Shown piece by piece: positions 15,170 to 36,998 of a stretch of 64,000 bases of DNA (positions are counted from its first letter, which is position 1; every line of letters starts with the position of its first letter). The DNA is from Acidicapsa acidisoli (GTDB taxonomy: Bacteria; Acidobacteriota; Terriglobia; Terriglobales; Acidobacteriaceae), in contig NZ_JAGSYI010000001.1 in the NCBI RefSeq assembly GCF_025685625.1, positions 1,984,001 to 2,048,000 on the forward strand, in the 5' to 3' direction. The notes beneath the pieces are model-generated. The model saw nothing but the letters and a program-made list of their open reading frames with translations, was not told the origin of the DNA and did no database searches. The position numbers and the translations under genes are program-made.

Positions 15170-16987
15170 TTACTGCGACAAATTGAGTCTTTTCAGAAGC
15201 TTGGCAAACCTGCGATCAGCGCGCAGAGGATGAAAGAACGGCTCGATCGCCAGAAGATTCACGAAGTTGGTTTTGTGGTCTATTGCTTCGTCCAGGCGCT
15301 GAAGCGCCAGATCGAAATCCCCCATCCCGACTGCAGCGAATCCTTCTGCCAGCGGAGTGACGTATTGCCGCCCCGCGAGTTGATGAAGTCTCTCGACACA
15401 TTCTTCGGCTCGCGATAAGTTGCCTTCCCGGGCATGGGCTGCGGCAAGCAGGCCGATATCCAATGGTGAGGCAGATGTCGATAGACACTGTATCACCGCG
15501 TCGTAACGCTGCTGCTGGAAGTGCAGGAGTCCTTCATACAATCTCGCTTCAGGATAGTCGCGATCCAGTTCAAAAGACTGCCGGAGATGCTCTTCGGCTG
15601 ATGGATAGTCTCCCTTGACGTAATGAAGATAAGCCATCCGCGCGCAGTCGCTGGCCGAGAGCGGGTCCAGTTCAGTCGAGCGGCAAAGTCCAGACTCCGC
15701 CGCGCTGATGTCTCCCTGGCACAACAAAGCCATAGCACGAAACATATGCGCCGGGGCGTGACTGGGTTGTAGTTGTAGCGCGTGGTCATACAGTCTGTCC
15801 GCTTCATCCCAACGATGCTCAAACCAGGCACGAAGTGCTCCCAGCACCGTGCAGGTGTCACCGGACTCAGGATCGAGAGCATAACCGCGTTCCGCGTTTG
15901 CCTTTACTTCTGGATACACATCACGGCCCGAGACCATCCCGAACTGGGCAAGAAGGCCGCTCGCCGCAGCCATGCCGCTGTAAGCGAGAGCGTAATCGGG
16001 ATAAGTCTCTGTGAGCCGTCGTAGCTGCTCCAGGGCGGCGTGCAGCGTTTCAGGCGACTGCTGGTGAATCAGAAATCGAGCTCGCAGGTACCTCGTATAT
16101 GCGTCAAGATCAGGAGGGGAGGGCCGCACTGGCCCTGGTACTTCCGGCATGTGAAGCCTGAGTAGCTCCGCAACAGATTGTGCAATCTCTTCCTGGATCG
16201 CAAACACGTCCTGAAGCTCGCGACGGAACGTCTCCGACCAGAGATGATGACCCGATTCGGTCTGAATCGCCTGGGCAGTGATTCGCAGCTGTTGGCCGGC
16301 CTTCCTCACGCTTCCTTCGATGACAAGATTCGCGCCGAGACGCTGCCCTACTTCCCGGATATCGATGCTGGCGCCCTTGAAGTGAAAGGCCGATGTCCGC
16401 GCAATCACGTTCAAACCGGATACCCGCGTAAGCGAATTCGTGATCTCTTCACTGATCCCGTCGCAAAAATAGTCCTGCTCCGGCTCCGGACTCATGTTCA
16501 CGAACGGCAACACGGCAACGCATATACGGCCAGGTGGCGGAGCGGCGCCAATCTCTTCGCGATGCTTTGCCGGCTGGACGTCAAGCCATCGGAAGACCGG
16601 GACATAACTGCCCGGCCGCAATCCAATCAGAACCGGATCAACCGTACCCTGCCCTTCCTCGTAATAGGCCTTCAACTTCGCTCTGAGACGGCGAGCCTCG
16701 ACCCGAACAATCGCGTCGATATTCGGATCGTACTCCGAGGTGCGGTCGAACACCTCCATTGCAATCGAGAACTCCTTGAGGCTATCGATATCTCCATCGA
16801 TTGTCCGATTCACGATGTGCGTCAGAAACCGGCATAACCGGACTGATGAAACGAAACCAGGGCTTTTCACCACGCGCGCCAATTGGTCGCGAACCGCCGT
16901 CGCCGGCACGGGGTCGGCGGCAGAGTTGGCGAGAGATCTTCCGGATGACAAGGGCGGCGTTGGCACTTGCTTCTCTCCCGCATTCAT
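15170..16987 (-). CDS. Winged-helix/TolB-like/TPR transcriptional regulator upstream of the RND operon
   Basis: The 605-residue protein has three parts. Residues ~28-135 read like a DNA-binding winged helix: YDPNIDAIVRVEARRLRAKL, then RPGSYVPVFRWLD as the wing. Residues ~150-270 form a TolB-like sensor/adaptor domain (ICVAVLPFVNMSPEPEQDYF, then TSAFHFKG and VIEGSVRK). The rest is TPR repeats (for example DEADRLYDHALQLQPSHAPA). No membrane segment is obvious, unlike CadC. This class is abundant in Acidobacteriota and presumed to regulate neighbours. Here it is followed on the same strand by the OMF-MFP-RND genes, and phased TTACG boxes lie before both it and the OMF gene. The winged-helix assignment is by pattern, not search. 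Confidence 0.75.
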   Translation of the reverse strand: MNAGEKQVPTPPLSSGRSLANSAADPVPATAVRDQLARVVKSPGFVSSVRLCRFLTHIVNRTIDGDIDSLKEFSIAMEVFDRTSEYDPNIDAIVRVEARRLRAKLKAYYEEGQGTVDPVLIGLRPGSYVPVFRWLDVQPAKHREEIGAAPPPGRICVAVLPFVNMSPEPEQDYFCDGISEEITNSLTRVSGLNVIARTSAFHFKGASIDIREVGQRLGANLVIEGSVRKAGQQLRITAQAIQTESGHHLWSETFRRELQDVFAIQEEIAQSVAELLRLHMPEVPGPVRPSPPDLDAYTRYLRARFLIHQQSPETLHAALEQLRRLTETYPDYALAYSGMAAASGLLAQFGMVSGRDVYPEVKANAERGYALDPESGDTCTVLGALRAWFEHRWDEADRLYDHALQLQPSHAPAHMFRAMALLCQGDISAAESGLCRSTELDPLSASDCARMAYLHYVKGDYPSAEEHLRQSFELDRDYPEARLYEGLLHFQQQRYDAVIQCLSTSASPLDIGLLAAAHAREGNLSRAEECVERLHQLAGRQYVTPLAEGFAAVGMGDFDLALQRLDEAIDHKTNFVNLLAIEPFFHPLRADRRFAKLLKRLNLSQ

Positions 16988-17486: not shown

Positions 17487-17563
17487 TGGCGGGAGCGACG
17501 GGACTCGAACCCGCAGCCTCTTGCATCACAGGCAGGCTTTCTAACCAGCTGAACTACGCCCCC
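17487..17563 (-). tRNA. tRNA with His anticodon GTG on an Asp-like body
   Basis: The minus strand folds as a 77-nt cloverleaf with encoded CCA. The acceptor is GGGGGCG/CGCTCCC (one G-T pair), T8 and A9 are present, the D arm is GTTC/GAAA with a G10-A25 mismatch, and the T arm is GCGGG-TTCGAGT-CCCGT. The anticodon arm is CCTGC-CTGTGAT-GCAAG, giving anticodon GTG (His) and a C28-A42 mismatch. The discriminator is G73, and there is no G(-1):C73 pair, the classic tRNA-His identity element. The body, with G73, instead resembles bacterial tRNA-Asp (anticodon GTC). Either a divergent tRNA-His or a mutated, possibly inactive tRNA-Asp copy. Confidence 0.7.
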
Positions 17564-23510: not shown

Positions 23511-23633
23511 TGTCTTTCCTCACCGCTCTCAGCCATGGCGTACGTACGAAACGCGAGCGCATCCCGGAATTTGATACGGGGCCATTGACAGGTCAAGTGT
23601 AGCAAGGCTGCTTCTGGAGCATGCTTCTTAGCT

Positions 23634-23725
23634 GATCACCGTGAGCTAGCTATCGATCACGTTTTCAGGTTCGCTGAATGCTGCCAATATTTGCGTGGGA
23701 TTGGAGATGCACATAGTGACGATCC
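23634..23725 (+). promoter_or_regulatory. 92-bp shared regulatory element, copy 1 (before the decarboxylase gene)
   Basis: Begins GATCACCGTGAGCTAGC and ends TAGTGACGATCC, 37 bp before the ATG at 23763. By eye, copy 2 (32513-32604, minus) is ~85% identical over the same 92 bp and copy 3 (34843-34933, minus) ~70% over 91 bp. Constant parts are GTGAGCTAGC, TCAC at position 24, AATATTTGCGTG and TAGTGACGATCC. (G/A)ATCAC repeats 21 bp apart (two helical turns) at its start. Each copy is oriented towards the gene it precedes. Confidence 0.75.
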
Positions 23726-23762
23726 AATGCGTTGAAAAGCAGATATTGCACAAGGAGTGGAG

Positions 23763-25436
23763 ATGAGCAAAAACAACCAAACTGAAGTTCAGGCACCCGT
23801 TCAAGATGTCGTCCCCAACATGATAAGCGTTCAAGATGCGACGTTCAATCTATTGCGCAAGCTCGGGCTGACGACCATTTTTGGAAACCCAGGATCTACC
23901 GAGCAGCCCTTCCTCAAGAACTTTCCTTCTGATTTTGAGTATGTACTTGGATTGCAGGAAGCAACTGCAGTAGCGATGGCAGACGGCTTTGCTCAAGCTA
24001 CGGGAAAACCAGCGCTGTTGAATCTGCACACTTCAGCTGGAACCGGGCATGGCATGGGCAACATCATGACGGCTTTCCAGAATAAAACGCCTCTCATCAT
24101 TACGGCGGGTCAACAGACACGTGAGATGATCCTCTGCGACCCACTTCTTACGAACCGCGATGAAACGACCCTGCCGCGGCCGTGGGTAAAGTGGGCGTAT
24201 CAACCGGTAAGAGCACAAGACGTCCCCGGCGCAATCATGAGGGCATATACGGTTGCCTTGCAGCCGCCCGCAGGCCCAGTATATGTATCGATCCCATTGG
24301 ACGACTGGGACCAGCCGGCACTTGGGGAGGCGGTCGTTCGAACTGCAAGCTCGCGGTACTCGCCAGACCCTGAGCGGCTTGCTCATTTCGCCGAAAGAAT
24401 TCGGAAGAGCAAGAATCCAGTGTTGCTTTATGGACCTGAGATCGAGCGCGCAGGCGGATGGGATGCTGGCATCAAGTTTGCTGAGCGCTTGAGAGCTCCT
24501 GTATATATGACGCCGCTCTCTGAAAAAGCGTCCTTCCCCCAAACTCATCCGCAGTTCCGAGGCATGGCGCCGATGGCGATTGGGCCATTGAGCAAGAAGC
24601 TTCGCGGCCACGACCTGATCATCGTGGTTGGAGCCCAGGTTTTCCGGTATTACCCCTTCGTTCCGGGAGAATACCTTCCCGAAGGCGCTGACCTCCTGCA
24701 AATCACCAATGACCCCTACGATGCGGGCGCCGCTATCGTCGGAGACAGCCTGTTGTCAGACGCAAAGCTGGCCCTGGAGGCATTGAACGATGCAATCCCA
24801 GAAGTGACTTCGCGGCCCGCTCCTGCAGCGCCACACATCGAACGAAAGCTTCCATCGCCGCCGAATAGTCCATTAACGGCACTTGAGGCATTCGCGGCGT
24901 TGAGCGAGCTGCGACCCGCGAACGCCATTCTGGTGAATGAGACAGCTTCAAATTTCGCGGATCTCGCCCAGTGCTGGCCAATCACCGAGCCCGGTACCTA
25001 CTACACCTTTGCGAGTGGCGGACTCGGATGGGGAGAACCGGCGGCGGTCGGCGTTGCGATTGCCCAAAAGAAACTGAGAACCGGGCGCCCGGTCATCGCT
25101 GCCATCGGAGATGGAGCGCTCCAGTATTCCGTACAGAGCCTTTATACAGCCGCTCGGCAAAAACTCAAGCTCATCTATATTGTCCCGTGCAACGACGAGT
25201 ACTTGATTCTCAAAGAATTTGCGGTACTTGAAAAAACCCCCAATGTGCCCGCGCTTGATCTGCCCGGACTTGATATCGTCGCAACCGCCAGGGCTTTTGG
25301 TTGTGCCGGAGTGGCCGCCCACACTACGGAAGAAATCAAGGCGGCTTTCAGAACAGCCCTCAGCGGCGACGGGCCCACCGTGATCGCGATTCGCGTTGCG
25401 CATCAACTCCGGCCGCTGGTACCCGACGTGGACTAG
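23763..25436 (+). CDS. mdlC: Benzoylformate decarboxylase-like ThDP enzyme
   Basis: The enzyme belongs to the thiamin-diphosphate 2-oxoacid decarboxylases and is closest in pattern to benzoylformate decarboxylase, which makes benzaldehyde and CO2. Numbered from the ATG at 23763, it has the active-site serine region GNPGSTE (Ser45), the ThDP-activating Glu66 (GLQEATAVAMADG), His89 in LLNLHTSAGTGHGMG, and the second histidine in FPQTHPQFRG as in the Pseudomonas enzyme. The metal-ThDP motif GDGALQYSVQSL...CNDEY is near the C-terminus. I preferred the ATG at 23763, with AAGGAG ~7 nt upstream, over the in-frame GTG at 23757. It is preceded by the 92-bp element and followed by two outer-membrane protein genes. 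Other 2-oxoacids are possible substrates. Confidence 0.85.
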   Translation: MSKNNQTEVQAPVQDVVPNMISVQDATFNLLRKLGLTTIFGNPGSTEQPFLKNFPSDFEYVLGLQEATAVAMADGFAQATGKPALLNLHTSAGTGHGMGNIMTAFQNKTPLIITAGQQTREMILCDPLLTNRDETTLPRPWVKWAYQPVRAQDVPGAIMRAYTVALQPPAGPVYVSIPLDDWDQPALGEAVVRTASSRYSPDPERLAHFAERIRKSKNPVLLYGPEIERAGGWDAGIKFAERLRAPVYMTPLSEKASFPQTHPQFRGMAPMAIGPLSKKLRGHDLIIVVGAQVFRYYPFVPGEYLPEGADLLQITNDPYDAGAAIVGDSLLSDAKLALEALNDAIPEVTSRPAPAAPHIERKLPSPPNSPLTALEAFAALSELRPANAILVNETASNFADLAQCWPITEPGTYYTFASGGLGWGEPAAVGVAIAQKKLRTGRPVIAAIGDGALQYSVQSLYTAARQKLKLIYIVPCNDEYLILKEFAVLEKTPNVPALDLPGLDIVATARAFGCAGVAAHTTEEIKAAFRTALSGDGPTVIAIRVAHQLRPLVPDVD

Positions 25437-25458
25437 CGTCCACTCAATCGAGGCACAA

Positions 25459-26355
25459 ATGATGTTCAAGAAAATGTCCACAAACGGCGCCGGGAAGGCA
25501 GTACTGATCGTACTCTCTGTCCTGGCGCCAGGCCTCAGTCATCGCGCGCTGGGCCAGGCTCTCACCATGGACGGCCAGTCCGGCATCTTCCTTCAGCCCG
25601 AGGCCGACGTGGTACCGTCACCTCATCATCAATTCGGCGCTCCGACTATAAGCTTTCATGCTGTCGATGCTGGCCCAGTCGCCGGGGACTACATCAATGT
25701 GGGAGTTGAAGAAGGATTCGACAATCGACTGGAGTTCGGGTACACCAGCAGCAATCACACCGATGGAGGTGACCCCACCATCAGCCCTCTATTCAACTTT
25801 GAAGGCATGAACATCTTCAACGTGAAAGCGAAGATCGTTCCTGCGGGTGCACACAAGCACAAGTACGTCCCAGCCGTTTCAATCGGAGGCGTGCTCCGGA
25901 CAAACGATCCCTTTGTTGTCCAGTTTGTTGAACATAAGAACGCGACAAACGGGGACATCTACGGTGTGACAACGGAGTTGTTCACTTTCGGAAAGAAGTT
26001 TGCGTTCGTGGGCACTGGCGGAGTTCGCGGCACCAACGCCCAGAAATACGGCTACGGCGGCAATGCCATCGATTGGGAAGCACGGGCCTTTGGAGGTCTC
26101 GCCTTTCCGGTACCGATCAAGGGAAAAATCGTGGTTGCACCAGCCGTGGAAGTTAACCAGGAGCCTCGTTACATCAAATACGTCCCGGGCGCTCATTTTC
26201 CGACAGATCTCATCTACGCAGTAAGAGTGTCCCGGTATCCGGACTCTAAGTGGACTTTCGACGTTGGCACGGGTCACTTAGGAGCCGCCCTTGCGCCGGG
26301 GCTCAATATCAAGGTGAACAATGCGATCGCAATTGCCGCCGACTTTCGATTCTAA
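25459..26355 (+). CDS. Exported outer-membrane beta-barrel-like protein
   Basis: The 298-residue protein has a signal peptide (AGKAVLIVLSVLAPGLSHRALG) and then a glycine- and aromatic-rich series of amphipathic strands (LEFGYTSSNHTDGGDP, FAFVGTGGVRGT, RAFGGLAFPVPIKGKIVVAP). It ends in a terminal Phe (IAIAADFRF), as expected for a BAM-assembled barrel. The start ATG at 25459 is 22 bp after the decarboxylase stop, so it is co-transcribed. A role in uptake of the decarboxylase pathway substrate is an inference from position. I do not recognise a named family. Confidence 0.7.
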   Translation: MMFKKMSTNGAGKAVLIVLSVLAPGLSHRALGQALTMDGQSGIFLQPEADVVPSPHHQFGAPTISFHAVDAGPVAGDYINVGVEEGFDNRLEFGYTSSNHTDGGDPTISPLFNFEGMNIFNVKAKIVPAGAHKHKYVPAVSIGGVLRTNDPFVVQFVEHKNATNGDIYGVTTELFTFGKKFAFVGTGGVRGTNAQKYGYGGNAIDWEARAFGGLAFPVPIKGKIVVAPAVEVNQEPRYIKYVPGAHFPTDLIYAVRVSRYPDSKWTFDVGTGHLGAALAPGLNIKVNNAIAIAADFRF

Positions 26356-26515
26356 GCAATCGCCCTGCGATATAGGCTCCAAGACCGCAGCTTAGAAGAC
26401 GAGGATGGCACGTGGGGACCAGGCTCTTCAAACTGGGTCTCTTTCGAAAATTAGAAGCTATTTCGCGCCTCGATGAGGAAGACGGAACCTCACTGGCACA
26501 GAGGAGAGGTTCATC

Positions 26516-27418
26516 GTGAATTCAACATCGAGACAGTTTTTCTTTCGGTCCTTTCTAGCTGCTTGTTTGGTCCTGTTGGCGCTCTTGTGCTCGAATGGGA
26601 CTCAAGCACAAGAGAATGCTTCGCAAACGCCGGCAAACGGGATCCAGAATCTGCATTCTACTGTCGAGGCTGGACCTGCCACCGAGAAAGGATCGGATGC
26701 GGCCGCAAAAGACGCTGCAGAGAATCCGGTTGCAGCAGCCATCAGCGTGCCCTTTCAGAACAATACGTTCTACGGGGTGGGCCCTTTTCGCCGTGCTGAG
26801 AATGAGCTTCTGATTGAGCCCGTCGTGCCTATCAGGCTTTCGGAGAACTGGATGGTGATTAGTCGAACGATTGTACCCGTCGTCGTTGTTCCCAGGCGCT
26901 CTGCAACGGCCGGGGTCGACTACGGTCTTAGCAATATACAGCCTCAGTTTTACTTGTCCCCTGTCCACGCCGGCAAGATTGTGTGGGGCGTGGGGCCGCA
27001 ACTGTGGCTCCCTACAGCCACTGACCATTCGCTCGGCATAAACAAGTGGGGTGGGGGGCCTGCGACTGTTGCGTTGTTCAGAAGTGGCCATTTGTTGGCT
27101 GGGACTCTCATCGGCAATGAATTCGCAGGAGTCAACCACGTGCATGAGAATCAAATGACCATCAACCCGTTCGCTTTTTACAACCTCAAGCACGGGTGGT
27201 ACGTGGTGTCGGCACCGATCATCACCGCAGATTGGACGGCAGAGAGAAATAAGCGCTGGACCGTTCCGGTCGGTGGCGGCGTAGGAAAACTCTTTAAGAT
27301 CGGCAGTCAGCCGCTCAACGCTCGGGCGGAGTATTTTAACGACGTTCGAACAACAACTGGTGGCACGGACTGGCAATTGCAGACACAGTTGCAATTTCTT
27401 TTCCTTCGCCATAAGTAA
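26516..27418 (+). CDS. Outer-membrane transporter-like protein (phenol-degradation MetA/neuromedin-U type)
   Basis: The 300-residue protein starts at a GTG with GAGAGG ~8 nt upstream. A signal peptide (SFLAACLVLLALLCSNGTQA) is followed by a low-complexity linker, then a barrel-like repeat: NTFYGVGPFRRAENELLIEP, VVPRRSATAGVDYGLSNIQP, WGVGPQLWLPTATDHSLG and a C-terminal strand ending LQFLFLRHK. The PVxPIxLSxxWxxISRTIxP pattern fits the 'transporter'/MetA-pathway outer-membrane family often found near aromatic catabolism genes. It lies 160 bp after the previous outer-membrane gene on the same strand. Confidence 0.72.
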   Translation: MNSTSRQFFFRSFLAACLVLLALLCSNGTQAQENASQTPANGIQNLHSTVEAGPATEKGSDAAAKDAAENPVAAAISVPFQNNTFYGVGPFRRAENELLIEPVVPIRLSENWMVISRTIVPVVVVPRRSATAGVDYGLSNIQPQFYLSPVHAGKIVWGVGPQLWLPTATDHSLGINKWGGGPATVALFRSGHLLAGTLIGNEFAGVNHVHENQMTINPFAFYNLKHGWYVVSAPIITADWTAERNKRWTVPVGGGVGKLFKIGSQPLNARAEYFNDVRTTTGGTDWQLQTQLQFLFLRHK

Positions 27419-27548
27419 ACCGTACAAGCGGCTGACCTCGCTCAATCGGCTCACGAGATTTTGGGTTCTAGACTGAGGTCGGCAAAGGCACTTGCATGGC
27501 GGAGACGGTTGGTCTCAGGATTCTAATGGGCCAATACCATAGCGCCAG

Positions 27549-27581
27549 GAGGCAGCGTACCGTCACGCTGCCTCTCTTTTT
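27549..27581 (+). terminator. Rho-independent terminator of the decarboxylase/outer-membrane gene unit
   Basis: GAGGCAGCGT (27549-27558) pairs perfectly with ACGCTGCCTC (27565-27574) around a 6-nt loop and is followed by a T-rich run to 27581. It lies 130 bp after the last plus-strand gene. Confidence 0.8.
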
Positions 27582-27703
27582 CGACATCATGGAAAGAATA
27601 GAGAATACGAAATGCGACGGAGTTGCTTACGCTCGTCCTCCAGGACGCAGGTCGGGGCCAGTTGGCCACTACTTCCCAATCAGCGTTGCGCCTGCCGGCA
27701 GGA

Positions 27704-27728
27704 GCGGGGCCGCTCAATGCGGCCCCGC
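27704..27728 (-). terminator. GC-rich hairpin after the alpha/beta hydrolase gene
   Basis: GCGGGGCCGC (27704-27713) and GCGGCCCCGC (27719-27728) form a perfect 10-bp stem with a 5-nt loop, 6 bp past the stop of the minus-strand gene. No T-run follows on that strand; it may end transcription or block exonucleases. Confidence 0.5.
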
Positions 27729-27734
27729 AGAAAT

Positions 27735-28709
27735 TTAGCTTCGGATAAATGTCAGGAGGTCCGCATTGATCACATCGGCATTCGTGGTCATCATGCCGTG
27801 AGAGAAGCCGGGGTAGATCTTGAGCGTGCCATGCTTGAGCAGCTTCGCCTGCAGCAGCGCAGCGTCCTTATAGGGGACAATCTGATCATCGTCGCCTTGC
27901 ATCACGAGGGTCGGCACTGAGATTGCGTTCAGATCGTCCGTCTGGTCTGTCTCCGAGAAAGCCTTGATACCTTCATAGAGAGCGAGCGTGCTGCCCATCA
28001 TCCCCTGACGCCACCAGTTCTGGATAATTCCCTGCGAGGTCTTCGCGCCGGATCTGTTGAAGCCGTAAAACGGACCGCTAGGGACATCGAGAAAGAACTG
28101 TGCGCGGTTCGCGGCCAGCGCCTTGCGAAATCCGTCAAACACCTCGATCGGAGTGCCTCCAGGGTTCTCTTCGGTTTTGACCATGAGCGGGGGAACCGCG
28201 GCGATGAGAACGGCCTTGGCTACGCGACCTTGAGGTTCGCCGTATTTGGCGACATAGCGCGCCACCTCGCCACCGCCCGTCGAATGGCCGATATGGACCG
28301 CATTCCTCAGATCGAGACGCTCGACTACAGCCGAGGCGTCGGACGCGTAATGGTCCATGTCGTGGCCAGTGTCCACCTGGGAGGAGCGGCCGTGACCGCG
28401 CCTGTCATGCGCGACAACGCGATAACCGTTGGCAAGGAAGAACAGCATCTGCACGTCCCAATCGTCTGACGACAGGGGCCAACCGTGGTGAAATACGATG
28501 GGCTGCGCATCCTTAGGACCCCAGTCCTTGTAGAAGATCTGTGTACCGTCTTTGGTTGTAATTATAGGCATTTCGATCTCTCCTGTGCTTGGTTGTGAAG
28601 TTGTTGGGACGGTCATCCCATGCAAATCTGGAGCCGGTTCCCCGATTGCTGCTCCTGTAGCCAGGACACCGAGTGTTATCAAAACATCGCGTCGACTAGG
28701 GTAAAGCAT
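27735..28709 (-). CDS. Alpha/beta hydrolase (non-haem chloroperoxidase-like) with optional Tat-like leader
   Basis: The fold and triad are clear: HGWPLSSDDWD at the oxyanion hole, nucleophile Ser in HIGHSTGGGEVARY, Asp in MQGDDDQIVP and His in GFSHGM. From MPIITTKDGTQIFYKDWGPK onward it matches cytosolic 'chloroperoxidase-like' esterases along their full length. The ATG at 28709 adds 46 residues with a twin-arginine-like leader (SRRDVLITLGVLATGAA). The internal ATG at 28571 has a strong AGGAGAG ribosome binding site, so two forms could be made. Last gene of the minus-strand catabolic block; gap to the dehydrogenase gene is ~100 bp. Confidence 0.85.
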   Translation of the reverse strand: MLYPSRRDVLITLGVLATGAAIGEPAPDLHGMTVPTTSQPSTGEIEMPIITTKDGTQIFYKDWGPKDAQPIVFHHGWPLSSDDWDVQMLFFLANGYRVVAHDRRGHGRSSQVDTGHDMDHYASDASAVVERLDLRNAVHIGHSTGGGEVARYVAKYGEPQGRVAKAVLIAAVPPLMVKTEENPGGTPIEVFDGFRKALAANRAQFFLDVPSGPFYGFNRSGAKTSQGIIQNWWRQGMMGSTLALYEGIKAFSETDQTDDLNAISVPTLVMQGDDDQIVPYKDAALLQAKLLKHGTLKIYPGFSHGMMTTNADVINADLLTFIRS

Positions 28710-28773
28710 TGTGCGAGCGCCTTACGGTTGACCGAAATCATGTGGGCCCATTAGGGTTGCCGGGCTTTGACTC

Positions 28774-28792
28774 GGCTCCTCCAGGAGGAGCC
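28774..28792 (-). terminator. Perfect palindrome after the 2-hydroxyacid dehydrogenase gene
   Basis: GGCTCCTCC-A-GGAGGAGCC, 9-bp arms with a single-base centre, 20 bp past the stop codon at 28813. There is no T-run. It could be a weak terminator or processing hairpin between the dehydrogenase and hydrolase genes. Confidence 0.4.
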
Positions 28793-28812
28793 AATGGTCA
28801 CTCTCGTTCACG

Positions 28813-29778
28813 CTAAGATTTGGCAAGGGACGGAGCTGGTGTCCCATTCAAGACCGCATCGATGTTGTCGAGCGCGACCATACCCATGTTGCTTCGGCTC
28901 TCAACCGTTGCCGTCCCGATGTGGGGCAGCAAGAACGTATTCTTGAGTTCCACGTAACCGGGATTGAGCTTTGGTTCTCCTTCGTAAACGTCAAGGCCTG
29001 CGGCAGCGACCCTACCGCTCTTGAGAGCCTCGATCAAGTCGTCGTCCTTGATCAAAGCACCGCGCGCTGTGTTCACAATGATCGCGCGCTCTGGAAGAAG
29101 AGCGATCGTCTTGGCGTTGAGGAAGTGGTGGGTTGTCAGTGTCTCAGGGGCATTCAGACTAAGGAACTGGCTCACTTTCACTAGTTCTAGGGGGTTAGCA
29201 TAAAATATCGCGTCTCCGGCCTTCTCTGCCGGCAGCTGGTGGATGTTGGAGTAATGGATCTTCATACCAAAACCTCTTGCGCGCTTTGCTATCGCTTGGC
29301 CGATACGCCCCATCCCGAAAATCCCGAGGTTCTTGCCCGTCACCTGCCAGCCGAGAAGGGCCTGTGCGCGTGGAATCGTCCACTCGCCGCTTCTGACCAA
29401 CTCCTGTGCTTCGAATGCTCGTCGGCTCGCTCCGAGAAGCAAGAGCATAGCAATATCTGCCGTCGCATCCGTCACCTCAGCCGGCGTGTATCCAATCGCA
29501 ATGTTGCACTCCGCAGCCGCGCGCATGTCGATATGATCGACGCCAACAGAATTTGTTGAGATCACCTTGACGGACGGGGAAACTCGCTTGAAGAACTCGG
29601 CATCGAGCCTGTCGAATGGCGTGATGAGCATCGCGTCGGCGCCCTCAGCTGCTGCGAGAAGCTCGTCATGCGTGAATGATGTTCCATCGGTCTTTCGCCT
29701 GACTTCGTAATTGCTGTCGATTCGCACGTCGACCGGCTTGATGAAATGGGACGTGACCACCAGGACAGGCTTTTTCAT
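28813..29778 (-). CDS. D-2-hydroxyacid dehydrogenase (glyoxylate/hydroxypyruvate reductase-like)
   Basis: The 321-residue protein has the D-isomer-specific dehydrogenase domains: a flavodoxin-like substrate domain and an NAD(P) Rossmann domain with GKNLGIFGMGRIGQAIAKRA. Catalytic residues are Arg in VNTARGALI, Glu in DVYEGEPKLN and His in LLPHIGTATVESR. It interconverts a 2-oxoacid and the D-2-hydroxyacid. AAGGAG precedes the ATG by 7 nt. In this block it could feed or drain the 2-oxoacid used by the decarboxylase at 23763, for example mandelate/benzoylformate-like pairs; that is inference. Confidence 0.88.
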   Translation of the reverse strand: MKKPVLVVTSHFIKPVDVRIDSNYEVRRKTDGTSFTHDELLAAAEGADAMLITPFDRLDAEFFKRVSPSVKVISTNSVGVDHIDMRAAAECNIAIGYTPAEVTDATADIAMLLLLGASRRAFEAQELVRSGEWTIPRAQALLGWQVTGKNLGIFGMGRIGQAIAKRARGFGMKIHYSNIHQLPAEKAGDAIFYANPLELVKVSQFLSLNAPETLTTHHFLNAKTIALLPERAIIVNTARGALIKDDDLIEALKSGRVAAAGLDVYEGEPKLNPGYVELKNTFLLPHIGTATVESRSNMGMVALDNIDAVLNGTPAPSLAKS

Positions 29779-29879
29779 TCAATCAGTTCTCCTTAGACAT
29801 TCGTTGCCGGGCTCAGGGCCAATGTCAGAAGTGCTACATAGATTCTCATGCTCAACTCCCCGATCCCGTGTCTTAATGT

Positions 29880-30815
29880 TCAGAACGTCAGCTTGCCACG
29901 AGCACGTAGTTCGCCGGGCAGCAGTGAGTTGTAAATGATCTCGTGCACCGGAGTGGGAAAATTGCAAGCGCGTCCCAACCGGACGACCGACCCGCTCTGC
30001 GCTTCGAGTTCCGAAGGACGACCAGCGACCAGATCGCGCTGCATCGATGACGAGCCATTGGGCGGAGCCGAGTCGACTAATTTCATCGTGCCCACCACCG
30101 ACTCGCTCGGCACCGGAATGCCGGTAGCGCGGGCCAGGCCCACAATTTCCCGCGCCGCGTTCTCAAGCAGCGATCTGGTCTCGGGCAGGCTTCGAATCAC
30201 GCCGGCCGGCGCCCTTGTGATTGCACCCACCGCGCCAAATGAAGCAACGAATTCGAACTTCTCCCAGAGCGCAACCTGGATGTTATCGGGAACGCGTGTA
30301 TCTATTTCCGCGCTGGAGAGGCATTCCACAAGTTTCTCCAGCCGTGGCGTCCGCACATTGTTCCGCTCACCGATGGTGATCAACGCTTTGGCCCCAGCAT
30401 GCCGGACGACACCCGGCGCAGTGACCATGGCCAGAATGTGACACATTCCTTCCAGTACATGTTCAGAACCGAGCACAGCCGCCAGTTGGTCGTAGGCCTC
30501 TACACCGTTTTGCAAAGGGACGACAATAGTTTCTGGCCCAATCATGCTGCGAATCTGCTGCGCCGCTTCCGTCATCTGCCACGCCTTGGTAGTAACGAAG
30601 ACGGCGTCCACGTGCCCCACTGCTGTGGGATCGCCGGTCGCTTGAACCTTCGGCAGCGCAAAATCGCCCAACGGACTCTCTACGCGCAAGCCGTCCTTGC
30701 GGAGCGCTTCGAGCATCGCGCCCCGAGCAATGAAGATAACGTCATTCCCAGCTTTGGCTAACCGGCCACCAAAGTACCCACCCAAAGCACCGATTCCGAT
30801 AAATGCAATCCTCAT
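29880..30815 (-). CDS. Ketopantoate reductase-family (ApbA/PanE) oxidoreductase
   Basis: The N-terminal NADPH motif is IGIGALGGYFGGRLAKAG, followed by VFVTTKAWQ (catalytic Lys region) and VPLQNGVEAYDQL. The C-terminal domain ends with the family signature SSMQRDLVAGRPSELEAQSG and GRACNFPTPVHEIIYNSL. I chose the ATG at 30815, with AGGGG ~6 nt upstream, rather than the GTG at 30821. True PanE makes pantoate, but many paralogues in catabolic clusters reduce other 2-oxoacids. Its position between a semialdehyde dehydrogenase and a 2-hydroxyacid dehydrogenase favours a catabolic role, so I give no panE symbol. Confidence 0.82.
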   Translation of the reverse strand: MRIAFIGIGALGGYFGGRLAKAGNDVIFIARGAMLEALRKDGLRVESPLGDFALPKVQATGDPTAVGHVDAVFVTTKAWQMTEAAQQIRSMIGPETIVVPLQNGVEAYDQLAAVLGSEHVLEGMCHILAMVTAPGVVRHAGAKALITIGERNNVRTPRLEKLVECLSSAEIDTRVPDNIQVALWEKFEFVASFGAVGAITRAPAGVIRSLPETRSLLENAAREIVGLARATGIPVPSESVVGTMKLVDSAPPNGSSSMQRDLVAGRPSELEAQSGSVVRLGRACNFPTPVHEIIYNSLLPGELRARGKLTF

Positions 30816-30847
30816 GATCACCCCTAAAATTCCTTGCTTTCCCTAGC

Positions 30848-32224
30848 TTAGGATCGGGCGATTGGAACAATGATGAGCTTCTTGTTCACAAACTCCTCAA
30901 GCCCCAAGTTGGAGAGTTCCTTGCCGTATCCAGACCTCTTGATGCCGCCGAAGGGAAGATCAGGCCAGCTCACATCCGGATAGTTGATGAAGACCATACC
31001 CGTCTCCATACGACTGGCAACGCGTTTGGCCCTGTCAATATCAGTTGAGTAGACCGACCCCCCGAGGCCAAACGGCGAATCGTTCGCGATCACGATTGCC
31101 TCAGCTTCGTCTTTGGCGGGAAAGACGAGCGCCACAGGACCGAAGAATTCCTGCTTATATGTAGGATTTTCCGGTGAGATCCCGGTAAGAATCGTTGGTT
31201 CTAGAAACGCGCCGACTGTTCCAGCTCGGTTCCCACCAAGGAGCACTTTGGCTCCGTGACTCGTTGCGTCACCGATCTGCCGCAGAATCAGTTGCAATGC
31301 AGCTTCCGAAGACAACGGCCCCAAGGTTACGCTCTCATCGAGCGGGTCTCCCAGCTTCAGTTCCTTTGCAGCAGCTATGAACCGCGACAGGAATTTGTCG
31401 AGCATCGATTCGACAACGATGAATCGTTTTGCGCCGATGCAGGTTTGTCCATTGTTATCGAAACGCCCGCGAATAGCCATGGCAACGGTATGATCCAGGT
31501 CTGCGTCATCGAGGACAATGAAGGCGTCGCTTCCCCCCAGCTCCATTGTGGACTTCTTGAGATTCTTGCCAGCCCTCGACGCCAAGGCCTCCCCCGCGCG
31601 CTCCGAACCGGTAAGAGCGATCCCCTTCACACGAGGATCATCGATCAAGGCTCCAGCCTGATCGTTGCTCAGAAAGAGATTGGTGTAGACCCCGTCCGGA
31701 AGGCCTGCCTCCTTCAGAATCCGTTCAAAGGCGACTGCACACTGGGGCACACCCGGCGCGTGCTTCAACAGCATCACGTTGCCGGACATTAAGTGCGGAC
31801 CAACGAACCGCGACAATTGGTAATAGGGATAGTTCCACGGCTGGATGCTCAGGAGAACACCCAAGGGAGAAAATTCCAGATGCGCGTCTCCCATCGTGGA
31901 TTTGATGGGCTTAGGTGCGAGGAACCTCGCCGCGTTGTCTGCGAAGTACCCGAGGATGGCTGCGCTCACTTCAACTTCGCCGCGGCTTTCAGCAATGCGC
32001 TTTCCCATTTCGAGAGTGGCAAGCCTTGCCAGTTCGTTCTTCTGTTCGAGAAGAAGCTGACCGGCGCGGGCAATGATCTTCGAGCGCTCTTCGATCGGCC
32101 GTGCTGCCCAGGAAGCGAACGCAGTGTCCGCTTTGGCCAAGGCGACCATCATTTCTTGATCCGTGTGCTCTGTGAATGTCTTGAGGACTTGGCCAGTGGC
32201 TGGATTTACACTGCGATATGGCAT
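30848..32224 (-). CDS. NAD(P)-dependent (succinate-)semialdehyde dehydrogenase
   Basis: The 458-residue ALDH has PWNYPYYQLSRFVGP for nucleotide/substrate binding, the catalytic Glu region TMELGGSDAFIVLDDADL and catalytic Cys in NGQTCIGAKRF. It ends with the short GabD/Sad-type terminus (PFGGIKRSGYGKELSNLGLE). It oxidises an aldehyde to the acid. In this block it could oxidise the aldehyde released by the decarboxylase at 23763. AAAGGA lies 7 nt before the ATG. The 39-residue ORF lies 75 bp upstream and the reductase gene 32 bp downstream, all one direction. Confidence 0.88.
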   Translation of the reverse strand: MPYRSVNPATGQVLKTFTEHTDQEMMVALAKADTAFASWAARPIEERSKIIARAGQLLLEQKNELARLATLEMGKRIAESRGEVEVSAAILGYFADNAARFLAPKPIKSTMGDAHLEFSPLGVLLSIQPWNYPYYQLSRFVGPHLMSGNVMLLKHAPGVPQCAVAFERILKEAGLPDGVYTNLFLSNDQAGALIDDPRVKGIALTGSERAGEALASRAGKNLKKSTMELGGSDAFIVLDDADLDHTVAMAIRGRFDNNGQTCIGAKRFIVVESMLDKFLSRFIAAAKELKLGDPLDESVTLGPLSSEAALQLILRQIGDATSHGAKVLLGGNRAGTVGAFLEPTILTGISPENPTYKQEFFGPVALVFPAKDEAEAIVIANDSPFGLGGSVYSTDIDRAKRVASRMETGMVFINYPDVSWPDLPFGGIKRSGYGKELSNLGLEEFVNKKLIIVPIARS

Positions 32225-32299
32225 GATGAGATCCTTTGCAGTTCGCGTTAAACTGATTAGTCGAGATTCACATTTATGAAATAGACGAAAAGGAGTGAG

Positions 32300-32419
32300 C
32301 TAGCGGACTGCCTTCGTCTTCCGATTGGTGGCGATGCCATCAATGTCTATTGCGTTGCTCCTTGACGTATTGTCGTAGTTAGCAAGTATGGCTTTCGCAA
32401 GCTTTTCTCCTGCATTCAT
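32300..32419 (-). CDS. 39-residue small ORF leading the semialdehyde dehydrogenase operon
   Basis: Reads MNAGEKLAKAILANYDNTSR and continues to a TAG stop; the C-terminal third is basic (TNRKTKAVR). A GGGAGA ribosome binding site sits ~7 nt before the ATG at 32419. It lies between the second copy of the 92-bp element (94 bp upstream) and the dehydrogenase start (75 bp downstream), so it is the first thing translated from that promoter region. No family recognised. It may be a real small protein, a leader peptide or the remnant of a longer gene. Confidence 0.5.
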   Translation of the reverse strand: MNAGEKLAKAILANYDNTSRSNAIDIDGIATNRKTKAVR

Positions 32420-32512
32420 AGTTCATCTCCCTGTTGAGATCGATTGTTCACACTGACATGTCGCAAGAACTGGTTGGACACAGCTGAGATCCTCCGGCAC
32501 AGCCTTGAGAAG

Positions 32513-32604
32513 GGATCGTCACTATCTGTATCTCCAGTCACACGCAAATATTGGCAGCATTCAGCGAACCTGAGAACGTGATCAATAGCTAGCTCACTGT
32601 GATT
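32513..32604 (-). promoter_or_regulatory. 92-bp shared regulatory element, copy 2 (before the 39-aa ORF / dehydrogenase operon)
   Basis: Read on the minus strand it begins AATCACAGTGAGCTAGC and ends TAGTGACGATCC. It is the closest match to copy 1 (about 85% by eye, no gap), including the central CAGGTTCGCTGAATGCTGCC. It ends 94 bp before the ATG of the small ORF and lies behind the stop of the receiver-like gene (32657). Confidence 0.75.
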
Positions 32605-32656
32605 GCTTGTCGGTCTGTTGTCACTTCTGCTAAGTCAAGACAACTCTTGGCGACAA

Positions 32657-33097
32657 TCACTCCGGCTGCGAACCGCTGGGTCGCCGTTCCTCATAGCTCT
32701 TCGCGGCGCCTAACACCGCACCTCGCAACGTTTCGTCCGAAAAGGGGTCCACGATCACGTCATAACATCCCAACTCGAGAACGCCTGACCACAATCGGAA
32801 AGTCGCCTCGCGTGTATAGACCAGAATCGCCGGGCGTGGGTTCATTAGCGCTAACACACCCCAAAGTTCCCACCAATCGGTATCGGAGAGGCTCGCCGGA
32901 AGAAGAGCGACCTGAAAAGCGTCCTCTTCGCGAATAGCAACTCCCACTCCGCCGATGCGGTCAAGAAACAGAGGGTCGGGCTTTAGAGGTGCCAACTGAC
33001 GACCGATCTCGGCGCGTCTGTCAGCCGGAACAACAGCCAACATCCGTAATTCTGTGCCTTGCGCATTCACGAGTGCCTCCCGAACCGCCATGCACAC
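32657..33097 (-). CDS. Degenerate receiver-like protein (no phospho-accepting Asp)
   Basis: The 146-residue protein keeps a receiver-like beta/alpha order: RMLAVVPADRRAEIGRQLAP, then QVALLPASLSDTDWWELWGV, PRPAILVYTREATFRLWSG and LELGCYDVIVDPFSDETLRG. The beta3 acceptor Asp is replaced (ALLPAS) and the beta5 Lys is Asp (VDPFS). It shares the W-x-x-xLExG-x-xDxIV pattern with the receiver-like protein at 17091, so the two belong to one degenerate family. It lies 237 bp behind the histidine kinase gene on the same strand, suggesting a non-phosphorylated partner. The start may be the ATG at 33091. Confidence 0.6.
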   Translation of the reverse strand: MCMAVREALVNAQGTELRMLAVVPADRRAEIGRQLAPLKPDPLFLDRIGGVGVAIREEDAFQVALLPASLSDTDWWELWGVLALMNPRPAILVYTREATFRLWSGVLELGCYDVIVDPFSDETLRGAVLGAAKSYEERRPSGSQPE

Positions 33098-33334
33098 ATT
33101 CGCACTTGGCTCAAAACTGAGGAATGTGAGGAACGCCTACATTGCCGTCTCGCGAGGCGTGCATGACGCGCAGATTGTCACGAACAATGCAACATTGCCG
33201 GGCCGAGGACTCGACGGGGTTGTTTCCCACGCACTTGCAATCCAGCAGCCTAAGTGTCACGAGCCATCAAGCAGCAGCCCGCTGATATCCCCGAGATCGA
33301 TCAAGGGTTTCGAATGGGTACTATCTCCGATCGC

Positions 33335-34720
33335 TCAGACGTTAATTGGAGCACCCTTCATCGAGGAGAGCGGTAAGGCCACACTGAATCTCGCGCCGCC
33401 GTCTGAGTTATTCTCAGCCCAAAGCCGCCCGCCATGCGCCTCGACAATCGAGCGCGATACCGCCAAACCGATCCCCATACCCTTTGCCTTCGTGGTCACA
33501 AACGCGTCGAAGATCCTTTCCTGATCATTCACTCCTGGACCATTGTCGATCACTTGTATGACCATTTGGTCCTGATCTGTTACAGCTGCCCGGACCTTAA
33601 TCAGCGGCGAGATTTTAGTGTTCTGTACAGCTTCGATGGCGTTTGAGATCAGGTTGATGAATACCTCTTTAATCTGTATGTGGTCTACCGGAACTTTAGG
33701 GAGATTCTCATCAAAGCTCCAATCAATGTGGACTCCACACTTATTGGGATCCGCCTGAACCAGACGAACCGCCTGTCTCACCATGTCTCGTACGCTTGCC
33801 TCGTTTTTAACGACGGGCTCCTGTTTGAAGAGCGAGCGAATATGTTGCATCGATTCGTCTGCCGCGCGTGCGTCTCGTATTATCCGCTTAATGGACAAAC
33901 TGGCTTCTGTCATGTTCGGCGTGCCGGCATTCAACCATCTGTTCGCGGCCTGTGCGTTCCCAAGTATCGACATAAGCGGCTGATTCAGTTCGTGGGCGAT
34001 GGAGGCCGACAGCTCTGCCACGGTCGCGATTCGCGAAGCCCTCGCGAGCTCGATCCGCGTGTCGCGAAGATAGTCTTCTGCTCGTTTCCGCTCATCGATG
34101 TCAACCACGAGACCATACCATTGAATAACCTTGCCATAGGGGTCACGCAAAGGCTCGCCTTTGGCGTGATGCCATCGATACTCCCCATCTGCGCGTCGCA
34201 ATCGGTGTATTGCGCTGTATGACTCTCCGGTCTCGATTGCCTGGGAAAATGCTTTTGCCGTTTCATCGAGATCGTCTGGATGAATGATCTTCTTCCAGCC
34301 TAGATTAAGGAAACTCTCTAAGAGGATTCCGGTATATTCCAGTAATCTTTGGCTGATGTGATTGATTTCTCCGGTCGGCGACGCTGACCAAAGCATGGAA
34401 GGAATTGTTTCGATGATGTCGAGGATTCCATGCTCTCGCATCTGAAGAGCACTTTCAGTGTCCTTCAATGCGTCGATGTCGAATAGAATCCCGCAACCGT
34501 CTCGAATGGATCGAAGGACTTCGAATTCTCGAACCGTGAGAGACGTCTCCCCAGGGTGCCCTGCAATATGTGCAGTCGGTTCAAGAGGGATACTTCGCCC
34601 CCGTTCGTGGACCTGAGAGATCTGTCGTGGGACGTAACTACGAGGAAAAGCGGTTGCACATTGATGCTCATTTGAATTGATCGGCTTCCGTGAGTGAGAA
34701 ACCCGTATCGACCTATACAT
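33335..34720 (-). CDS. Cytoplasmic PAS-domain sensor histidine kinase
   Basis: The frame is open from 34948, but that start lies inside the regulatory element. I chose the ATG at 34720 with a GAGAGGGGG stretch upstream, giving 461 residues. A ~95-residue N-terminal region of unknown fold is followed by a PAS domain at ~100-215 (IPSMLWSASPTGEINHISQR, ADGEYRWHHAKGEPLRDPYG). The H box is SASIAHELNQPLMSILGN with His243, and the ATPase domain has INLISNAIEAVQ (N), IDNGPGVN (G1) and GMGIGLAVSRSIVEAHGG (G2). No membrane segment is evident. A copy of the 92-bp element lies ~122 bp before its start. Nearby receivers are degenerate, so its phospho-partner is not obvious. Confidence 0.85.
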   Translation of the reverse strand: MYRSIRVSHSRKPINSNEHQCATAFPRSYVPRQISQVHERGRSIPLEPTAHIAGHPGETSLTVREFEVLRSIRDGCGILFDIDALKDTESALQMREHGILDIIETIPSMLWSASPTGEINHISQRLLEYTGILLESFLNLGWKKIIHPDDLDETAKAFSQAIETGESYSAIHRLRRADGEYRWHHAKGEPLRDPYGKVIQWYGLVVDIDERKRAEDYLRDTRIELARASRIATVAELSASIAHELNQPLMSILGNAQAANRWLNAGTPNMTEASLSIKRIIRDARAADESMQHIRSLFKQEPVVKNEASVRDMVRQAVRLVQADPNKCGVHIDWSFDENLPKVPVDHIQIKEVFINLISNAIEAVQNTKISPLIKVRAAVTDQDQMVIQVIDNGPGVNDQERIFDAFVTTKAKGMGIGLAVSRSIVEAHGGRLWAENNSDGGARFSVALPLSSMKGAPINV

Positions 34721-34842
34721 GGAAGGACCCCCTCTCGATTGAATTGAGATTTGCGTGCGAACGCTGTAGGACTGAACGAGGATGTTCGACTCTAGGGACA
34801 CAGGGCGGCCCGTCTTGTGCAAAATCTGGCGTTCCCCGAGGT

Positions 34843-34933
34843 GGATCGTCACTAGGTGCATCCCAAGCACACGCAAATATTCGCACCGCATAGCGAGTTC
34901 GGAAAGGTGAGCAAAGGCTAGCTCACAGTGATC
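34843..34933 (-). promoter_or_regulatory. Shared regulatory element, copy 3 (before the histidine kinase gene)
   Basis: On the minus strand it begins GATCACTGTGAGCTAGC and ends TAGTGACGATCC, with one base fewer than copies 1 and 2 just before GATGCAC. Here the inverted repeat is perfect: GTGAGC-N8-GCTCAC. AATATTTGCGTG is conserved; the middle (CGAACTCGCTATGCGG) has diverged most. It lies ~122 bp before the kinase ATG and ~190 bp after the TPR regulator gene. Confidence 0.7.
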
Positions 34934-35123
34934 ATCTGGTCGTCTCAAGTGGCTCTTCGTAGTTTGTGCGGTTGTTCATGAAGTCTCACATCGGGATCGA
35001 TGACGACTCGCACATCTGGAAGCAGGTTGTCGTGATCATTGATTCGCCGCTGCCGCACTGGGCGTCAGCAAAACATGGGCGGCTATTCGGGAGACCAGGC
35101 ATTGCTGCTAAGCTAGCCGTTCG

Positions 35124-36998
35124 TTATGTCGGTTCAGGAACAACCTTAGCTCTCTGTTGCTCTCGGCTCGCAGTGGTCCCGAACGTTGACGAAGATGCGC
35201 GCATAACCTCGGCGAGCAAAAGGCCAAACCGCCGGTCCTCCCGGATCATATCGAGTCGAGGGTCATGTGCCAGCCAAATAAGCTCTGCTTCGCGCTCCTC
35301 GCAGGCGATAGACAATAGCGATATCGCTTTCTCCGAGTTCTCCAAAGCGAGCGAAAGGAGGGCCTGCCGGAATTTGCTGATCGGTGAGTTCGCAGAGAAA
35401 AGATTATAGTCACTGGCGATACGATCTGCGGCTGCAGTTTGACCGCACATCGCCAGGACCTCTGCAATTGCACTCATCAAGGCAGGATGGGCGCCCGCTT
35501 TGCACACAACGCTCCGGGCCAGCTGTTTTGCCTCATCGCGACGATCTAGCGAAATCAGCATTATGGCTAGGTAAATTTCGCTCTCGATTGGCAACGTTCC
35601 ATAAGACATCTGTTTCGAAATGTGGTTCACTCCTTTGTCGTTGTCTCGACTAAGGTGAAACAATTTCGCGTTGACCACTTTCTGGCGATACGAAAACGGA
35701 TCGATCTGATGGGCTTCTTGAAGGTAATTCCAAGCCTCGTCAAATCGCCCCAGCGCGGCAAGAAAGAGGGCATACTGACGATAAGTTCCGGCACTCTCTC
35801 CAAGTCCTAGCGCCTGTTGGAAAAGCTTCTCTGCATCATGCCACTTCCATGACAACGCCAGGGCGCATGCTGTGCAGGCAGGAACCAATATCATTTGAGG
35901 GTCGAGTTTGGCTGCACGCTGCGATGCTTGTTTGGCGCGAGACACAGCTAAGGCAGAATTGGGCATTCCGCGCAAAGCCATCTCGCAATAGCATAGAGCT
36001 ATGCCGCAGACAGGCCTAGCATAGTCGGGCTCAATCTCACTCACTTCCTGGAATTTCGACAGCGCCAGCTGCGTGTCCGCCAACGTCCCCTCATCGAGCA
36101 ATGCTTCCGCTGCAAGGACCAGTGGATAGACAGCAAGCATAGAAGTTCCTGCTGACGCCTTTTGTTTCCGGATCAACGACTGTTCGGGCCGGATACGGCT
36201 GATCAACGCCGATACGATTCTTTCGGAGATTTTGAAGACACTTTGCGGATCTGGTCCCGCTTCGAACCGCTCTGACCAGATCTGAAATCCGTCTGCCTTG
36301 ACGACCCGGGACGTAATACGTAGCTGATTGGTATCCTCATGTACCGTGCCTTCAAAGATGACCTGGACGTTCAGTTTTCGGGCCAGAGAAGGAAGGTCCA
36401 GTTCTTGAGTCATCAGTGGTGCCACCGAACTCGCGGCGGTCACTTGGAGCCCGTCCGTGCGCACTAATTCGTGGATCAACTCATCGGTGATGATTCGGGC
36501 GTAGGCGCCAGACAAGTCGCTGCGGGATGCATCTACAAAAGGCAAAACCGCTATCCGGACTCCCGGACCCTCAACGAAAAGCTCGTCCCAACCATCGTCT
36601 CTCCCAGCACCGTCGCGGCCCTTGCTGCGTCGGAGCCTAAAGACGGGTACATAGCCGCCACGCCGATAATAGATAAAGATCGAATCGTCTTTACCAACGG
36701 ATTCGTAGTACTCCTTTAGTTTGCGCCGCAGCCTCCGAGCCTCGCTGCGAACGATGGAGTCTTCACTGGGATTGTAAGAAGGTTTGCGTTCGTATACTGT
36801 GGTGCCAATCAGATACTCCTTCAACATCTCCGCGTCGCCTGCTAGCGTCGCTTCGACTGTGAAGCGAAGAAATCGTCCAAGTCGGTCCGATTGCACGAAC
36901 ATCGAACTCTCCAGAATTCGAGCGAGTTCATCACGAATCGCCTCTTCGGAAATCGCGTCTTCGTTCTTGAGTTCACCCACGACTAAATAGTTTCCCAT
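35124..36998 (-). CDS. Winged-helix/TolB-like/TPR transcriptional regulator
   Basis: The 624-residue protein shows the same architecture as the protein at 15170. Residues ~15-135 form a winged-helix-like domain (YNPSEDSIVRSEARRLRRKL, then RRGGYVPVFRLRR). A TolB-like domain follows (VRIAVLPFVDASRSDLSGAY, VIFEGTVHEDTNQLRITSRV), then TPR repeats (KFQEVSEIEPDYARPVCGIA, AEKLFQQALGLGESAGTYRQ). No membrane segment is clear. It lies directly upstream of element copy 3 and the kinase gene. By analogy with the first TPR regulator, which sits beside its own box array, it is my candidate for binding the 92-bp element. A CGCAAA-GTCG-TTTGCG palindrome (37011-37026) precedes its ribosome binding site. Confidence 0.75.
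   Translation of the reverse strand: MGNYLVVGELKNEDAISEEAIRDELARILESSMFVQSDRLGRFLRFTVEATLAGDAEMLKEYLIGTTVYERKPSYNPSEDSIVRSEARRLRRKLKEYYESVGKDDSIFIYYRRGGYVPVFRLRRSKGRDGAGRDDGWDELFVEGPGVRIAVLPFVDASRSDLSGAYARIITDELIHELVRTDGLQVTAASSVAPLMTQELDLPSLARKLNVQVIFEGTVHEDTNQLRITSRVVKADGFQIWSERFEAGPDPQSVFKISERIVSALISRIRPEQSLIRKQKASAGTSMLAVYPLVLAAEALLDEGTLADTQLALSKFQEVSEIEPDYARPVCGIALCYCEMALRGMPNSALAVSRAKQASQRAAKLDPQMILVPACTACALALSWKWHDAEKLFQQALGLGESAGTYRQYALFLAALGRFDEAWNYLQEAHQIDPFSYRQKVVNAKLFHLSRDNDKGVNHISKQMSYGTLPIESEIYLAIMLISLDRRDEAKQLARSVVCKAGAHPALMSAIAEVLAMCGQTAAADRIASDYNLFSANSPISKFRQALLSLALENSEKAISLLSIACEEREAELIWLAHDPRLDMIREDRRFGLLLAEVMRASSSTFGTTASREQQRAKVVPEPT

Follow-up and report, generated by a model that had tools for sequence, protein, structure and literature searches.

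A triplicated operator-promoter element in Acidicapsa acidisoli and its probable control by a TPR regulator

In this study, we analyzed a DNA element that occurs three times in a 64-kb window of the genome of Acidicapsa acidisoli (64,000 nt of contig NZ_JAGSYI010000001.1; all coordinates are those of the window) and that had been described in a first-pass annotation of the sequence. Read from its sequence, each copy is a composite of a 28-bp operator followed by a weak -35, then an extended -10 whose spacing is fixed, and a GTG start codon. The three copies are very probably the promoters of one small local regulon under P0001, a TPR regulator encoded at 35124..36998 on the minus strand, with activation of the class II type. 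In the mechanism we propose, P0001 would bind an operator of T[C/A]AC half-sites set 10-11 bp apart and would recruit RNA polymerase, so that the gene of a PAS histidine kinase would be switched on together with a benzoylformate-decarboxylase-like gene and an operon headed by an aldehyde dehydrogenase. We infer both the binding of the regulator to the operator and the activation from conservation, co-occurrence, position and spacing. The interpretation given in the first-pass annotation is partly supported by these results; its proposal of a cis-regulatory element, comprising operator and promoter and pointing in each copy at the gene that follows, agrees with ours.

The element and its promoter geometry

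Copy 1 lies at 23630-23728 on the plus strand, and copies 2 and 3 lie at 32510-32607 and 34841-34937, respectively, on the minus strand. These are confirmed as real copies of one element, as annotated: 67 of the 100 columns of their alignment are invariant (copy 3 carries a 1-bp deletion), and an 18-bp 5' box, itself derived from the three copies, had three matches in the window with up to 3 mismatches against a mean of 0.21 in shuffled sequence, where three matches were reached in 0 of 100 shuffles. The annotated length of about 92 bp holds for copies 1 and 2, which are 92% identical over 91 bp, but not for copies 1 and 3, whose likeness (76%) extends over 127 bp and therefore beyond those limits; copies 2 and 3 are 76% identical over 93 bp. 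The 3' box TAGTGACGATCC has three exact matches, and eight against 4.3 expected when 2 mismatches are allowed, so that it is unremarkable by itself once mismatches are admitted. When the copy-2 element was searched against the whole 7.1-Mb genome by BLAST, it retrieved copy 1 (E 8e-32), copy 3 (E 4e-10) and then a match of only 19 bp (E 0.4). No fourth copy was found in this genome by BLAST, by a model of the three copies (R1) or by a model of the operator made from 27 aligned sites (R2). An exact-pattern scan of viral contigs gave zero matches. Two matches of the pattern in a genome-contig database, where we estimate about 0.7 by chance, were rejected, having spacings of 18 and 14 bp instead of 16/15 and no R1 match at either locus. 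A reading of the element as coding sequence was also rejected, since its 1-bp and 4-bp gaps break every frame.

The number and placement of the copies bear on the idea that a mobile repeat or miniature inverted-repeat transposable element (MITE) landed by chance before three genes. Such an origin would suit the 92% identity of copies 1 and 2, and also a core-only piece lying among apparently broken genes in another genome (G155; G numbers denote genomes). It is nevertheless highly improbable. Many dispersed copies, as expected of a MITE, were not seen; there are three in 7.1 Mb, all inside 12 kb and all directed at the gene they precede, and diverged operators elsewhere stay beside the regulator and hold their spacing to the -10. 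Occurrence at many places unrelated to gene starts, named in the first-pass annotation as the finding that would speak for a mobile repeat, is thus not what the genome of A. acidisoli contains.

From the alignment of the 27 sites, the operator is a 28-bp sequence of T[C/A]AC half-sites stepped by 11 and 10 bp. It lies at 23633..23660 (plus strand; R2 E 0.001) in copy 1, where TCAC, TAGC and TCAC follow one another at 10-11 bp steps, at 32578..32605 (minus; E 2e-4) in copy 2, and at 34907..34934 (minus; E 4e-6) in copy 3. The direct repeats 21 bp apart at the start of the element and the GTGAGC-N8-GCTCAC of copy 3 are present as annotated. An inverted-repeat (dimer) reading of the latter was set aside by eye, as the symmetry seems less well preserved across the 27 sites than the tandem step. 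The further claim that the whole module is conserved as a functional unit did not hold up. Judging from other genomes, where mainly the operator and the -10 persist, the 92 bp are not one conserved unit, and most of the remaining sequence looks like local duplication together with a translation start. G144 and G078, for example, retain the 28 bp of the 5' end and, some 21 bp beyond, a TGCGA box, whereas most other sequence is lost, with a faint residual trace of it in G078. At two of the three sites in G144, and also in G078, the repeated TCAC/GTG letters switch jointly to TAAC (or GAAC)/GTT, and these joint changes within one small group of sites suggest that a single protein reads all of the repeats.

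The putative extended -10 is TGCCAATAT in copy 1 (23682..23690, plus), where it begins 21 bp past the operator, and in copy 2 (32548..32556, minus), and TGCGAATAT in copy 3 (34877..34885, minus), giving a window consensus of TGC[CG]AATAT. The pattern TGnnAnnnT occurs at an offset of 19-21 after the operator in 23 of the 27 sites, compared with a mean of 0.33 and a maximum of 3 in 2000 rounds of shuffling. The -35 position abuts the operator and matches poorly (TTTTCA, TTCTCA and TTTCCG; that of copy 1, at 23662-23667 on the plus strand, is directly past the operator). With positions counted from the presumed -10, the operator occupies about -64 to -37, which is most likely the placement of a class II activator. 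Because the operator abuts a weak -35 at a fixed distance from the extended -10, the bound regulator would most likely recruit RNA polymerase.

The same regulator and operator could instead serve for repression, or for repression and activation both. The operator does touch the -35 position, and the sequence data are compatible with a repressor. We regard this as unlikely, since an operator that lies upstream of the -35 and not over the -10 or +1, at a fixed spacing and next to a poor -35, fits activation better than repression; the last repeat of SARP activators is even closer to the -10 than it is here, according to PMC10936776. The nearly fixed length of the element and the start codon at its 3' end would also fit a structured, riboswitch-like leader RNA. 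That possibility is barely credible: no Rfam match at gathering score falls on the copies (across the window only a tRNA, at 17490-17563, is matched), none of the 25 pairs predicted from the three-copy alignment is altered on both sides, which for three sequences is little evidence, and conservation elsewhere concerns the operator, upstream of the transcript by the promoter geometry. Activation by P0001 at these promoters is the interpretation that we prefer.

The regulator and the distribution of operator sites

P0001 begins with a winged-helix-like domain, followed by weak FlgO and TPR matches, the only ones in Pfam at E<=0.001, where no BTA domain was found. Residues 1-132 matched no Pfam family up to E 1, and a 20-sequence profile of this domain matched no PDB sequence up to E 1. 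The domain is nevertheless predicted to fold as a winged helix, with OmpR-type DNA-binding proteins making up 12 of the first 15 structural rows and PrrA, SaeR, GlnR and PhoB at the top. An alpha/beta part follows in the predicted model at residues 147-269, and residues 201-583 match the NCBIfam HilA profile (E 5e-15; 54.9 bits vs. a cut-off of 589). The N-terminal domain is encoded at 14 places in the genome of A. acidisoli. No operator was found at 19 paralogue loci there (the match plus 1.5 kb on each side), the best matrix score being 10.2 compared with 22.2-42.5 for the 27 aligned sites. The window encodes another TPR regulator of this family (15170-16987, minus), which shares 28% identity with P0001; its locus (L111) has no operator match. 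Literature searches turned up nothing that we recognized as this operator or as the DNA target of this regulator family.

The first-pass annotation had proposed the TPR/winged-helix regulator as the binder of the element, and comparison among genomes strongly supports its candidacy. When R1 was run on 300 genomes of the same family, 34 matched at E<=0.1, which is about chance level; below 1e-4 there were only the own genome (G000), G155, G144 and G078. G144 is matched at three places, in two cases with E 0.003-0.005; G155, on reading, retains the 3' core only. Among the other 30 matches, those in G246 and G165 were read and judged to be chance, and those in G006, G066 and G107 (L038, L041 and L043) were viewed with the model. 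A relative of P0001 with 68% identity over residues 7-271 is encoded beside one of the G144 sites. P0001 itself was matched at E<=1e-75 in 22 of 398 family genomes, the own genome included and G144, G078 and G155 among them.

A matrix built from the three window copies alone was used to scan up to 20 kb around 20 regulator places in 19 genomes (two contigs gave 8 and 9.5 kb; G084 was left out and G144 was scanned apart). The best site lay 0-450 bp upstream of the regulator, pointing away from it, at 9 of the 20 loci (G194, G109, G407, G155, G359, G389, G176, G202 and G103). A binomial estimate for this is 5e-13; counted by genera (4 of 7) it is 1e-5, the fairer figure because the loci are related. 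The best site also points away from the regulator at 798 bp upstream in G144 and 1020 bp in G363. There was no outstanding upstream site in G307, G240, G283, G301, the second G109 place or G078, where the contig is cut. In G350, the best matrix site is 5.7 kb off, and R2 places another some 190 bp ahead of the regulator.

In 40 genomes searched with R2, a site was found in 19 of the 22 that bear the regulator and in 0 of the 18 without it. Without the own genome, G144, G078 and G155, the figures are 15 of 18 vs. 0 of 18 (p 1.5e-7). The genomes with a regulator match include none of the 18 controls, six of which (G001, G004, G010, G011, G018 and G020) are explicitly listed as searched and matchless. 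At a regulator identity of at least 44%, an R2 site occurs somewhere in all 19 genomes, the own included, that of G078 being on a contig other than the regulator's. By eye, a two-repeat variant lies upstream in G240, G283, G301 and G307. A class-wide regulator search (399 genomes, E<=1e-70) added five genomes of other families, and thus sites out of sample. The close orthologues in G646 (61%) and G675 (54%) both have strong sites at the regulator; among the distant G585, G482 and G688 (29-33%), only G688 has a site, about 20 bp upstream of the regulator. At locus L189 in G646, which belongs to another family, the regulator, the operator, the decarboxylase, a 319-aa protein and a 2-hydroxyacid dehydrogenase stand in series, with 59-79% identity. 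The G646 regulator is closer to P0001 than those of most genomes in the family of A. acidisoli, suggesting that the island has been transferred horizontally.

This distribution also bears on the alternative that a response regulator binds the element, namely the LytTR protein encoded at 42891-43649 or a partner of the PAS kinase. A LytTR gene is present in the window, the kinase gene has a copy of the element, and LytTR proteins recognize direct repeats some 21 bp apart. Such a binder is very unlikely, as the sites follow the TPR regulator across genomes, although LytTR genes were looked for in the window alone; within the window, the annotation's idea of LytTR/HK partners gained no evidence. 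In G164, moreover, homologues of the kinase (60-68%) are kept along with the decarboxylase (81%) and the aldehyde dehydrogenase (84%), yet neither a regulator match nor an operator was found in the 19 kb around its decarboxylase and dehydrogenase genes.

Target genes and leader frames

Copy 1 stands before a benzoylformate-decarboxylase-like thiamine diphosphate enzyme (23763..25436, plus) assigned by Pfam and by NCBIfam NF005485 (624.5 bits vs. a cut-off of 493). Copy 2 precedes a 39-codon frame (32300-32419, minus) and an aldehyde dehydrogenase (30848..32224, minus; Pfam), downstream of which are genes for ketopantoate-reductase-like, D-2-hydroxyacid dehydrogenase and alpha/beta hydrolase proteins. 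Copy 3 precedes the frame of a PAS histidine kinase (33335..34852, minus; Pfam). The ketopantoate-reductase-like gene of the catabolic block is at 29880-30821 (minus). Some D-mandelate dehydrogenases are members of the ketopantoate reductase family, which would suit a route from mandelate through benzoylformate and benzaldehyde to benzoate. Our guess is that the inducer is an aromatic 2-oxo or 2-hydroxy acid. A 319-aa protein (25396-26355, plus) had no Pfam or NCBIfam match; its relatives are encoded near the decarboxylase in G084, G004, G247 and G646 (55-72%).

The profile search of related genomes that had been recommended in the first-pass annotation revealed further sites by regulator, catabolic and efflux genes. 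Strong sites precede the decarboxylase orthologues in G363 and G646. A site at the aldehyde dehydrogenase of G084 scores 33.0, its counterpart here being copy 2, and a D-2-hydroxyacid dehydrogenase gene, which here lies within the copy-2 operon, is directly behind a G363 site (22.2, the lowest of the 27). In G155, and likewise at the second G109 place, the site is followed by efflux genes that Pfam assigns to a membrane fusion protein, an MFS pump and an outer-membrane factor; by Pfam too, OEP-HlyD-FUSC genes lie behind a G144 site. Gene lengths suggest the same efflux operon in several other genomes. Other genes at sites are isochorismatase-like (G144 and G078), CaiB-like by reading only (G144), cytochrome oxidase (G226) and Mla transport (G350).

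The TAGTGACGATCC box consists of a purine-rich stretch followed by GTG ACG ATC, a possible start, and this GTG opens a reading frame in every copy. In copy 1, a presumably translated leader frame of 16 codons (23716..23766, plus) runs from GTG ACG ATC to VTIQCVEKQILHKEWR and a stop, with a Shine-Dalgarno-like TGGAG ahead of it (from 23702, plus); its TGA overlaps the decarboxylase ATG (23763) as ATGA. The copy-2 frame has 24 codons (32448..32522, minus). The GTG of copy 3 (34852) shares the reading frame of the kinase and lies 44 codons ahead of the kinase ATG at 34720; the copy 1 and copy 3 frames read on alike as E(K/R)QILHK. By hand reading, the same decarboxylase in G363 (89%) has its own operator and then a 17-codon GTG ACG ATC frame with an ATGA overlap. 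In G646, the operator and -10 run straight into the decarboxylase ATG and no leader frame was seen. The long shared block (91-127 bp) could thus represent a promoter copied along with its ribosome-binding site and GTG start, the duplicated start surviving in copy 1 as the leader frame that overlaps the decarboxylase start. The simplest history would be one in which a promoter was copied along with its start codon and then came to overlap a new gene, the direction of copying being presumed. A 3' core copy without an operator is found in G155 (L062, 9475-9539, minus), with 84% identity to copy 1 over 73 bp; by eye, it is flanked by an ABATE-type gene and the start of a class II fumarase, both apparently truncated.

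Several observations weigh against control of these promoters by P0001, or against parts of that interpretation. A plain sigma-70 consensus scan of 32400-35130 found nothing; the first-pass view that the element holds no obvious vegetative promoter is all the same not supported, as an extended -10 at constant distance is visible in it. A Foldseek search gave no significant fold match. Regarding the distribution of sites, the upstream site ranks second or third in G177, G166 and G226, the score of the G194 site falls short of significance, being reached by 24 of 100 shuffles, R2 is blank in the regulator-bearing G240, G283 and G301 (38-39% identity), and the R2 match in G307 is weak (E 0.037) and 4.7 kb from the regulator. 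In addition, the training sites of R2 come from most of the genomes that it then matches, so that the matrix-only locus scan and the class-wide search are the cleaner tests. Decarboxylase sites are moderate in G247 (21.5) and weak in G004 (15.1, on the other strand) and G084 (12.1), and the only regulator homologues near them in G004 and G247 are distant (32%). Finally, the interpretation does not account for the core-only copy in G155.

Relation to known regulators and significance

OmpR/PhoB-type winged-helix regulators bind tandem 11-bp repeats, as in the pho box. P0001 resembles them in its predicted winged helix and in half-sites about one turn apart directly upstream of a weak -35; tandem repeats about 11 bp apart beside the -35 are a trait of such targets, and the operator, of which P0001 is the presumed binder, shows it. 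Unlike OmpR and PhoB, its N-terminal domain is without a Pfam match, it has no receiver domain and FlgO-like and TPR parts follow instead, and the half-site here is T[C/A]AC with steps of 11 and 10 bp. LytTR response-regulator sites are likewise direct repeats about two turns apart; they differ in half-site, and the sites described here are tied to another regulator family. The match to the NCBIfam HilA profile recalls HilA/EilA and CadC-like one-component regulators, but it omits the DNA-binding N-terminus of P0001 and is far under the cut-off.

A further parallel is with the SARP/AfsR proteins of Streptomyces (PMC10936776), which combine a winged helix with TPR in one protein and act at direct repeats one or two turns apart beside a poor -35. 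For SARP activators, a repeat spacing of 11 or 22 bp is given there, with 8 bp between the last repeat and the -10. P0001 differs in that no BTA was found in it, in site sequence, and in having the last repeat upstream of the -35 and farther from the -10. We tentatively suggest, as a possibility that falls somewhat short of an even chance, that P0001 belongs to a large unnamed family of one-component regulators acting in an OmpR/SARP-like manner on tandem T[C/A]AC-type repeats, and that their regulons grow by copying of promoter, ribosome-binding site and start codon, leaving overlapping leader frames before captured genes.

A regulator whose DNA-binding part lacks a Pfam match would hereby gain a concrete DNA target, a promoter geometry and a set of target genes, and the function of related TPR regulators would become directly testable. 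One switch may link efflux with the catabolism of 2-oxo and 2-hydroxy acids, probably aromatic ones, and the leader frames suggest that such a regulon can be extended through copying of a promoter together with its start codon.

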